Origin: Clostridia bacterium
Lineage (GTDB): Bacteria > Bacillota > Clostridia > Oscillospirales > SIG627
Assembly: GCA_017439965.1 (NCBI GenBank)
Contig: JAFSID010000056.1
Coordinates: forward strand, 1-39,802
Direction of reading: 5' to 3'
DNA: 39,802 nucleotides
Under the pieces are notes generated by a model. It searched no databases, was not told where the DNA came from, and saw nothing but the letters and a program-made list of their open reading frames with translations. Positions 27,243 through 29,424 of this stretch are shown here, piece after piece. A program made the translations under genes and the position numbers. Position 1 is the first letter of the stretch. Each line of letters begins with the position of its first letter.

Positions 27243-28325
27243 TTGGAAAACACCGATTTTTTTAAACTTAAAAGCAGTTATTCGTATTATTTGCCCGATG
27301 AGCTTATAGCACAGACCCCGGTTGAGCCACGTGACTCATCAAGACTACTCGTTTGCTCAAGGGACGGTAGCCTTACCGACAGAATTTTTCGTGATATCGT
27401 TGATTATTTCAACGAGGGCGACGTACTCGTCGTTAACTCCTCCAAGGTTTTACCGGCAAGACTTTTTGCCGAAAAAATTCGCTCTGATAATTCCTTCGAA
27501 AAAGGTGCTATGCTTGAGATACTGCTTCTTGAAAGATGCAATGACAGAGATGACGGAGAATATTGGCAAGCTATCGTTCGTCCGGGTAAAAAAGCAGTTG
27601 TCGGAAAACGCTTTTCTCTCGGCAATGGACTTATGGTGGCGGAGATAGTCGAAGTACTCGATAACGGAAACAGAATTATACGCTTTGATTTTGATAAATC
27701 CGTTTATAGTTTTTATCAGCTCCTTGATGAAATCGGTACAATGCCGCTTCCTCCTTACATAACCGAGCGACTTGAAAACAAAGACAGATATCAAACCGTA
27801 TATGCAGATACCTTAGGCTCAGCCGCAGCACCCACTGCTGGACTTCACTTTACTCCCGAGCTGCTTGATATATTAAAAAACAAGGGCGTAATTATTGTAA
27901 ACGTTATTCTTCACGTAGGTCTCGGTACGTTCAGACCCGTCAAGGCTGATACGATTGACGAACACAAAATGCACTCAGAGTATTATGAGCTTCCCAAGGC
28001 AACTGCCGACGCAATTAACGAAGCCAAGAAAAACGGAAAAAGAATCTTCGCGGCGGGTACTACCTCCTGCAGAACGCTCGAAGGATCGTTTGCAAAAAAC
28101 GGTGCCGTCGTCTGCGATTCGGGATATACAGACATTTTTATCTATCCCGGTAAGTCTTTTAACGTCGTTGATTCACTTATAACCAATTTTCACTTACCCG
28201 AAAGTACGCTTATAATGCTTGTTTGTGCAAAGCTCGGATATGATAACACTATGAATGCATATAAGCATGCTGTCGAGGAACGTTACAGATTCTTTTCATT
28301 CGGAGACGCGATGCTGATAGTATAA
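27243..28325 (+). CDS. queA: tRNA preQ1(34) S-adenosylmethionine ribosyltransferase-isomerase
   Basis: About 360 residues. It transfers and isomerises the ribosyl group of SAM onto preQ1 in the tRNA wobble position, making epoxyqueuosine. Motifs: YYLPDELIAQTPVEPRDSSRLLV near the N-terminus, VNSSKVLPARLF, AAPTAGLHFT, VGLGTFRPV, and the C-terminal NFHLPESTLIMLVCA and FFSFGDAMLIV. No ATG exists between the promoter and the conserved start, so TTG 27243 (eight bases after AGGT) is the likely start; the frame extends upstream only as untranslated-looking AT-rich sequence. The stop codon lies inside a 14-base-pair hairpin. Confidence 0.92.
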   Translation: MENTDFFKLKSSYSYYLPDELIAQTPVEPRDSSRLLVCSRDGSLTDRIFRDIVDYFNEGDVLVVNSSKVLPARLFAEKIRSDNSFEKGAMLEILLLERCNDRDDGEYWQAIVRPGKKAVVGKRFSLGNGLMVAEIVEVLDNGNRIIRFDFDKSVYSFYQLLDEIGTMPLPPYITERLENKDRYQTVYADTLGSAAAPTAGLHFTPELLDILKNKGVIIVNVILHVGLGTFRPVKADTIDEHKMHSEYYELPKATADAINEAKKNGKRIFAAGTTSCRTLEGSFAKNGAVVCDSGYTDIFIYPGKSFNVVDSLITNFHLPESTLIMLVCAKLGYDNTMNAYKHAVEERYRFFSFGDAMLIV

Positions 28326-28469
28326 AAGATTTATACTATCAGCAGATACGAGATAATAGAGAATAGATAAGAGAAAATGAAGCTTTTTGCTTTGGCAAAA
28401 AGCAACCATTTCTTTTCGCTCATCGAAGTTTTGTGTCTTATATGCCATAAACTTCGATGACGCGATGCT
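28305..28469 (+). repeat. Hairpin-rich segment between 11-base direct repeats at the 3' end of queA (possible small inserted element)
   Basis: GACGCGATGCT occurs at 28305-28315 (inside queA) and again at 28459-28469. Between them are three perfect hairpins: 28313-28326 with 28330-28343 (14 pairs), 28382-28390 with 28395-28403 (9 pairs), and 28420-28431 with 28449-28460 (12 pairs), separated by a purine-rich AGATA/AGAGAA stretch. The second repeat reads in frame as FDDAMLIQ-stop, close to the QueA ending FGDAMLIV-stop. The first hairpin could also act as a weak terminator. No open reading frame of note is present. Confidence 0.55.
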
Positions 28470-28500
28470 CATTCAATAACAACAGACAAAGGATAATGCT

Positions 28501-29424
28501 TTGAAAAAAATTCTTGTAATCGCAGGTCCTACCGCGATAGGAAAAACCTCTCTTTCAATCGCTCTTGCACAAATACTTGACGGTGAGATTGTATCAGCCG
28601 ATTCGATGCAGATATACAAAATGCTTGATATAGGTACTGCAAAGCCGACCGTTGACGAGAGATGCGGTATTCCCCATCATATGCTTGACGTGTGCGACCC
28701 ATCTGTAAGATACAGTGTAGCTGATTACGTTTACGAAGCGTCCGCCGTGATACGCGATATTATATCTCGCGGAAAGCTTCCGATAGTTGTCGGCGGTACG
28801 GGTCTTTATATTGACCATTTGCTATATGATACAAGCTTTGAAGAGGGAAACTCCGATGCGGAGCTTCGCTCAAAGCTTACCCAAAAGGCTCTTGATCTTG
28901 GAGGCTCAGCTCTGAAATCTGAGCTTGCCGAGGTTGACCCTGAAAGTGCCGAGAGATTACACGATAACGATATAAAAAGAATCGCCAGAGCACTTGAATT
29001 TTATTACGTAACAGGCAAAACCATAACTGAGCATAATAAAAATAACGCATTTAAAACAATGCGATTTTCTTCAAATTTCTTCGTTTTATACAGTGATGAC
29101 AGAGAGCTTCTGTATAACAGAATTAACGAACGCGTTGATATTATGATGCAAAACGGCTTACTTGAAGAGGCTGAACGAGTTTGTAAATCCGATTGGTTCA
29201 GCGATTCTACCGCCGCTCAAGCTATCGGCTACAAGGAGTTTTTACCGTATTTTAACAACGAGGCTTCTCTTGACAGTTGTATTGGCATTTTAAAACAACA
29301 TTCCCGCAATTATGCCAAGCGTCAGCTTACGTGGTTCAGAGCAAAACAGGAAGCGTGCTTTATAGATATCAATTCAAAAAAAACACCGCTTGAGCAAATC
29401 ATATCCATTATACGAAAGGCTTGA
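28501..29424 (+). CDS. miaA: tRNA dimethylallyltransferase
   Basis: 307 residues. It transfers dimethylallyl from DMAPP to adenosine-37 of tRNAs reading codons that begin with U. The P-loop is GPTAIGKTS near residues 9-17, then SADSMQIYKMLDIGTAKP and VGGTGLYIDHLLY, and the C-terminal QLTWFR motif; all are standard MiaA. The start is TTG, eight bases after AAGGA; an upstream ATG at 28497 is out of frame and hits a stop at once. The stop is one base before the next gene's ATG. Confidence 0.95.
   Translation: MKKILVIAGPTAIGKTSLSIALAQILDGEIVSADSMQIYKMLDIGTAKPTVDERCGIPHHMLDVCDPSVRYSVADYVYEASAVIRDIISRGKLPIVVGGTGLYIDHLLYDTSFEEGNSDAELRSKLTQKALDLGGSALKSELAEVDPESAERLHDNDIKRIARALEFYYVTGKTITEHNKNNAFKTMRFSSNFFVLYSDDRELLYNRINERVDIMMQNGLLEEAERVCKSDWFSDSTAAQAIGYKEFLPYFNNEASLDSCIGILKQHSRNYAKRQLTWFRAKQEACFIDINSKKTPLEQIISIIRKA

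Follow-up and report, generated by a model that had tools for sequence, protein, structure and literature searches.

A short gene-free segment that separates queA from miaA in a Clostridia bacterium is best understood as a miniature, non-coding, recombinase-less integrative cassette, akin to CIMEs and SCC-like cassettes, lodged in a 3'-end attachment site of queA that is used by phages encoding large serine recombinases (LSRs); we put the probability of this reading at a little under 90%. The stretch of DNA analyzed, hereafter the window, is 39,802 nucleotides long, and genomes and loci compared with it are identified below, where they have to be told apart, by our own G and L numbers. Several observations carry the argument: the junctions of the segment match phage attP and attB sites, LSR-encoding regions occur in a free as well as a queA-joined state, an empty counterpart of the site exists in a related genome, the cassettes form arrays, and some cassettes encode toxin-antitoxin systems. 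In one genome (G385), queA is separated from a cassette array by an LSR-encoding element.

Organization of the queA end

The sequence GACGCGATGCT occurs twice in the window, at 28305-28315 and 28459-28469, and the direct repeat can be extended to 27 nt at 78% identity (28299-28325 versus 28453-28479; spacing, 154). A first-pass annotation had described an 11-base repeat flanking a gene-free, three-hairpin segment of 143 bases and had interpreted it as a possible insertion that rebuilt the stop codon of queA. The coordinates of the direct repeat and of three inverted repeats (28312-28326/28330-28344, 15 nt, 100%; 28369-28390/28395-28416, 22 nt, 77%; 28420-28431/28449-28460, 12 nt, 100%) bear out this layout, and the repeat spacing corrects the length of the unit to 154 bp (Table 1). 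Besides the queA end, only short open reading frames (58, 30, and 30 aa) overlap the segment. At the left junction, the host attB left arm, encoding Y-R-F-F-S-F-G-D, passes into the element, with C-G-C as the central bases (28307-28309). The present QueA terminus and its stop codon were indeed rebuilt by the element, with the last codons running from 28308 and hairpin 1 lying over the stop. The downstream copy of the queA end encodes F-D-D-A-M-L-I-Q-stop, its stop codon lying 21 nt upstream of the miaA start; that it is the original QueA terminus, as had been proposed, is supported by a pair of related genomes described below. We read the 11-base repeat as the core of a site-specific recombination site, one that recurs at the same queA codons of other genomes and in phage attP sites.

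Table 1. Features at the junction of queA and miaA in the window
Feature	Position	Strand	Basis or remark
queA	27249..28325	+	Last codons, from GC at 28308 to the stop at 28323-28325, come from the inserted element
attL (left attachment junction)	28284..28321	+	Second-best window match of the full-site matrix from 8 phage attP sites
Inserted mini-cassette, 154 bp, gene-free	28308..28461	+	Repeat spacing; copies elsewhere
Hairpin 1	28312..28344	+	New QueA end and its inverted copy; overlaps the stop codon
Hairpin 2, purine/pyrimidine arms	28369..28416	+	Inverted repeat and fold
Hairpin 3	28420..28460	+	3' arm contributes to the right attachment arm
attR (right attachment junction)	28438..28475	+	Phage-type attP left arm TTATATGCCATAAACTTC, core, and original queA end
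Displaced original queA terminus (A-M-L-I-Q-stop)	28462..28479	+	Repeat; precedent in G259 versus G241
miaA, next gene	28501..29424	+	

The junctions of the segment match phage attachment sites

Eight viral LSR loci that are without queA provided a set of free attP sites. A matrix of their eight left arms, restricted to positions -24 to -7 and so excluding the GGNGAY-GC core, ranks 28438 first among 79,570 window positions, and a matrix of the full site ranks 28438 first and 28284, the left junction, second among 79,530. With the seven distinct arms the rank is again 1, and in leave-one-out runs it is 1 in six of seven cases and 2 in the other. As controls, reversed arms rank 7287, and column-shuffled matrices attain rank 1 in 0 of 50 trials. 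The attL and attR sites expected of a CIME are thus found at both ends of the segment, its two junctions being the two best full-site matches in the window. The attachment arms are all that the element has in common with phages; exact patterns of the attachment site, of the cassettes, and of the element body match no viral contig.

A clade of phage LSRs is tied to queA

Scanning of viral contigs with four aligned LSRs recovered 80 loci, of which 69 were usable after omission of 11 with a partial or duplicate LSR. Among those with at least 100 nt of flanking sequence, the queA-end core lies 53 to 266 nt behind the LSR in 34 of the 39 relatives of at least 47% identity, the same core is found in one of two at 46% identity, and it is absent from all 21 with 45% or less. 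Five close relatives depart from the pattern: one (L251) has the core on the opposite strand, and four lack it (L223, whose contig ends inside the core; L229, in which queA is some 1.1 kb distant; L255; and L263). In a tree built from 58 LSRs (11 of the 69 rows dropped), 32 of 37 on one side of the drawn root, whose fork is weak (66/58), have the core, against 0 of 21 on the other side.

Twenty-four of the viral LSR loci contain queA itself, and in 16 of these 146 or more residues could be aligned. Both states of the site are captured by three pairs of viral loci whose LSR genes are identical (1707/1707, 1701/1701, and 1698/1698), one member of each pair having a free attP and the other being joined to queA; the paired flanks match up to the core (245/245, 240/241, and 115/115), where they switch from phage to queA sequence. 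The LSRs of L096 and L191 have Resolvase, Recombinase, and zinc-ribbon domains.

At an E value cutoff of 1e-120, LSRs of this group were detected in 4 of 394 bacterial genomes (G385, G198, G309, and G043). In G385 and G198 no more than 250 nt separate the core from the LSR, and queA is upstream. The LSR of G309 is partial and some 1.4 kb distant from a queA end; that of G043 shares a contig with queA but is 12 kb from it and has no core alongside. G198 and G309 (L298 and L300; family f23) possibly hold prophages or ICEs at the queA site. The distance from queA to miaA in G385 is about 89 kb, with a 585-aa LSR adjoining queA and, at the far end, the core, three cassettes, and miaA; two viral contigs have an LSR 100% identical to that of G385, also beside queA. 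We additionally observed that the last gene before the G385 array (L118, 1007-1390) reads in frame through the core and ends in the QueA-like FGDAMLIE.

The window's own genome has no LSR of the queA clade at the 1e-120 cutoff. Its three PF07508 genes are on contigs other than the one that constitutes the window; two of them were compared with the LSR and match part of it at about 27%. Among 22 genomes (21 with the element or part of it and one empty-site control, several with contigs that break soon after queA), a PF07508 gene is present on the queA contig in G385 only; hence, in 21 of the 22 the mobilizer is not seen beside the cassettes. Searches of plasmids with the LSR at 1e-60 recovered no match. 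Two other candidates were set aside: a Lachnospiraceae LSR (L155, 44%) has no queA nearby, and the record of Faecalibacterium phage Brigit, whose LSR is 47% identical to that of L191, starts at the LSR stop and has no core in the 120 bases at either end.

Distribution of cassettes at queA ends of related genomes

QueA is present in 44 of 58 relatives, and of 30 loci fetched, 27 had a readable queA end, five of which, from four families and including the window, have a second queA-end copy downstream. A search for further copies, which had been suggested as a check, found them at queA ends in other genomes and, within the window's own genome, behind polC. When this polC copy was used to search the DNA of the whole order, 56 of 394 genomes matched, many only in the purine-rich arm or an IS3-like part, and more queA ends followed by a single or a double tandem copy came to light (spacing of 175 in G337 and of 154 in G356); the first 100 nt of the element recur at lower identity behind queA of other genomes. 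The segment itself has no match in the other five genomes of the genus, nor did a DNA search of plasmid and phage records with it recover any.

A QueA profile search was positive in 360 of the 394 genomes, after which 40 chosen loci and 20 further stretches, 18 of them queA ends, were fetched. The resulting census comprises 83 genomes with a readable queA end, a non-random set that favors families and genomes known to carry the element. Within it, a core-like copy is found at most 1.5 kb behind queA in 19 of 83 genomes (3 of 83 on the reverse strand), and a core combined with the phage attP arm (tail of at most 0.005) within the same distance in 14 of 83 (reverse strand, 0 of 83). Three of the 19 (G039, G177, and G215) look like chance matches and G391 is doubtful; G368 narrowly misses the arm cutoff (tail, 0.0056), yet its element is of the type seen in G259. 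Two of the 14, G122 and G157, are identical over 880 of 880 bases and were counted as one. Despite this identity, G157 (L108/L134 pair with G122) is placed in a different family from G122, an observation pointing to binning contamination or very recent transfer.

A less biased count comes from a strict attachment pattern (at most three mismatches) searched over all 394 genomes, which gave 18 matches in 12 genomes and none with a reversed control. Fifteen of these matches are close behind queA, two are past the inserted element of G385, and one is on another contig of G031, adjoining a gene read as tgt. In both G031 and G042 (L136 and L152), the cassettes are followed by a gene that reads as tgt and not by miaA, implying that the site is used whatever gene comes next.

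Two genomes of one genus provide the empty and the occupied state of the site. In G241, queA ends in GGCGATGCCATGTTCATCCAATAAGCGGC; in G259, a different queA end is followed by the element and then by GGCGATGCCATGTTCATCCAATAAGCGGC, from which it follows that the displaced copy is the native queA terminus. Tandem arrays with the queA end included in the count reach three sites each in G041, G337, and G356, and four sites at a spacing of 183 bp occur in G157. Separately, the purine/pyrimidine arm (AGATAAGAGAGAAAAGAGAAGAG or its complement) is seen in other genomes of the order (L062, L068, L072, L073, and L075, at about position 1500); by our reading, arms of this type adjoin tRNA genes, without the queA core, and the element-type body may be in use at other attachment sites too.

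Toxin-antitoxin cassettes

Some cassettes at these sites encode proteins, namely, RelB/YafQ pairs in G168 and G302 (detected with Pfam) and DUF4160/DUF2442 genes in G385 (Pfam) and G042 (tblastn). A tblastn search of 116 kb detected toxin-antitoxin genes at most 1.5 kb behind queA in 8 of the 83 genomes, with G012 and G307 having the RelB part only; a further 307 kb downstream gave one match, which is one of the eight continuing across the boundary. YafQ-like genes in 68 viral loci are in no case accompanied by the queA core within the stretch fetched, so that toxin-antitoxin cassettes were not found on phages by this route. As a side observation, a 105-kb viral contig (IMGVR_UViG_3300029305_012082; L235 and L313) contains both a queA-clade LSR and a YafQ-like gene, about 20 kb apart.

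Strand exchange and the type of recombinase

The arrays could alternatively be the product of a tyrosine-recombinase or integron-like system, in which cassettes with hairpin sites are gathered by an IntI-like or Xer-like enzyme. Integron gene-cassette arrays occupy a fixed site and include toxin-antitoxin cassettes and hairpins, and the queA arrays resemble those of a chromosomal integron in all three respects. Tyrosine recombinases have an overlap of 6 to 8 bp. At 14 loci for which attL and attR could be compared, the base before the GC is identical in the two junctions in every case (C in some loci, T in others), the G is common to both in all 14, and the C is common in 12 (the exceptions being a single site in G041 and another in G044); the base after the GC differs in 6 of 14 loci and the base before the Y in 2 of 14. 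Serine recombinases exchange strands across a 2-bp overlap, the central dinucleotide (PMC3783163). Identity confined to Y-G or Y-G-C fits such an overlap and not the longer one of the tyrosine enzymes, and later mutations could mimic part of this pattern. Moreover, unlike in integrons, no tyrosine recombinase gene (PF00589) is on the queA contig in any of the 22 genomes; all 22 have tyrosine recombinases somewhere, so that an integrase elsewhere in the genome is possible. The core shared by the junctions is at most 3 bp long, the sites match phage LSR attP, and phage LSRs are tied to the site. On balance, we consider a tyrosine-recombinase or integron-like origin very unlikely, and the serine-recombinase cassette remains the reading that we favor.

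The hairpins and a possible RNA function

The first-pass annotation had also allowed that the gap between the two genes might hold a structured small RNA or an attenuator, which in the rival reading considered here simply diverges in place. The region 28290-28500 does fold much more strongly than its shuffled versions (z, -5.94; 0 of 200 shuffles as good), and in an alignment of 11 hand-chosen copies, 7 of 24 predicted hairpin pairs show changes on both sides (5 of 15 in hairpin 1 and 2 of 9 in hairpin 2). However, miaA directly follows queA, by our reading, in 7 of the 11 QueA-bearing genomes of the window's family, including G002 of the same genus; the segment is also found behind polC and in tandem copies; and its right end is a phage attP arm. 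Rfam 15 covariance models gave no match at the gathering score over 27900-28900, the sole subthreshold match being inside miaA and outside the segment. As an account of the origin of the segment, an RNA gene is therefore unneeded and, in our estimate, very unlikely. An RNA function of the hairpins can nonetheless coexist with the cassette reading, as the compensatory changes would allow: in hairpin 1 the new QueA codons are paired with their own inverted repeat beyond the stop, which suggests a role such as ending or insulating the queA transcript, and the hairpins as a group may act in this way.

A second copy behind polC

GACGCGATGCT occurs four times in the 2.44-Mb genome, twice at the queA end, once in a second copy of the element, and once inside a coding sequence that reads as a PfkB-type kinase. 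The second copy is right behind the polC stop codon, 96% identical over the first 100 nt from 28305. It is truncated, its right half having been replaced by an IS3-like remnant, so that the left junction alone is readable, and it may derive from a secondary-site event. Within the genus, polC ends without the element in G001 to G004, and the near-identical G005 stops before the polC end, leaving no clean empty polC site for comparison.

This copy bears on the initial interpretation of the segment as a MITE-like insertion with 11 bases of target duplication, which would imply a DDE transposase. A small hairpin-rich segment between direct repeats, with a second copy in the genome, is what such an element would look like, and the insertion itself stands. 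The MITE and its target duplication do not: the polC copy likewise begins with GACGCGATGCT, which makes the supposed duplication a part of the element, and the repeat is better taken as a recombination core. Furthermore, the same queA codons serve as the site in other genomes and families of the order, the right end is a phage attP arm, and the ends of the element are direct rather than terminal inverted repeats. We accordingly regard a MITE as highly improbable. Had the queA end been duplicated locally in tandem and the two copies later parted by other sequence, imperfect direct repeats 154 bp apart would be left as observed, but the G241/G259 comparison, the polC copy, and an attP arm that is not queA sequence make this the least credible explanation of all.

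IS3-family-like sequence is seen inside the same element hairpin at two unrelated places, the polC copy (L005, 2800-2960) and the queA copy of G031 (L026/L136). This family call is a reading of sequence alone. IS3 was considered as the mover and rejected; since the IS3-like sequence sits within the element, we take it as a later guest.

A model for cassette capture and stacking

In the cassette model, a queA-specific phage or related element would integrate by means of its LSR, recombining its attP with the queA end and replacing the last codons of the gene. The left end of a cassette would bring a replacement QueA C terminus and stop codon, and its right end would correspond to the phage-type attP left arm. 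Recombination of the cassette, or of cassette and phage together, with queA would then swap the gene end, and in the window the original end would have been moved 154 bp downstream. Cassettes with the same arms would probably be stacked by the same LSR, supplied in trans or acting in cis from an adjacent prophage.

Cutting out a circle of only 154 bp would be physically strained. Accretion would offer another route, in which a prophage and a neighboring cassette exit as one circle and a later parting at the inner site leaves the cassette behind; on this route no free 154-bp circle is needed. The G385 neighborhood has the arrangement that accretion would need, the movement itself being what we infer.

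Relationship to known systems

SCC elements have ccr-less relatives and form composite arrays. SCC-like cassettes such as the Enterococcus cassette chromosome use large serine recombinases and a fixed chromosomal site (PMC6222049). The queA cassettes differ from them in target, in the lack of ccr genes, in being miniature non-coding units, and in that the recombinase is on phage-like elements; a ccr-type serine recombinase is neither carried by them nor generally alongside, PF07508 being found on just one of the 22 queA contigs.

CIMEs are without integration and transfer genes but retain attL and attR, and their tandem accretion is known (PMC5704250). The element resembles them in its attL and attR flanks, its lack of integration and transfer genes, its tandem occurrence at one site, and the autonomous relative that adjoins the array in G385. 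CIMEs are described as decayed ICEs or IMEs (PMC5704250), in contrast to this gene-free unit of 154 bp, which has relatives across several families of the order and whose sites are matched by LSRs found mostly in viral contigs. The ssrA-specific islands of Dehalococcoides are similar in that many elements, with or without an integration module, use one conserved gene, and they differ in that the site is the tmRNA gene and the cargo consists of genes (PMC3146451).

Diverse LSRs are reported to target one conserved gene site (PMC10083194); queA has 0 occurrences in the main text of that paper, and the excerpts of it contain nothing on non-coding riders of such sites. One paper that mentions both queA and attB concerns, in its excerpt, a tRNA-Leu downstream of queA (PMC2647930). 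We found no report of queA as an LSR site in the open-licence literature, in part among the best 20 of 87 and 8 of 617 matches, an absence that is weak evidence. Three features seem to be new: the miniature, gene-free form of the element, its occurrence in stacks, and its link to a queA-specific clade of phage LSRs.

Implications

The cassette reading accounts for the puzzling hairpin segments behind queA and identifies the last codons of that gene as a conserved landing site. The set of LSRs with inferred attP/attB pairs constitutes a source of candidate tools. Our findings suggest that phage serine-integrase sites can be populated by tiny gene-free riders and toxin-antitoxin cassettes and that integron-like behavior can occur without an adjoining integron integrase. 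More tentatively, and with doubt outweighing confidence, we propose that the queA 3' end across the order could be an integron-like cassette platform at which phage LSRs capture, stack, and spread gene-free units of 85 to 185 bp and toxin-antitoxin units, both terminating in the phage attP arm, as riders of queA-specific phages; these riders may in turn block incoming phages or impose a cost on them. The cassettes also offer a clean test of any hindrance that such riders pose to superinfecting phages.
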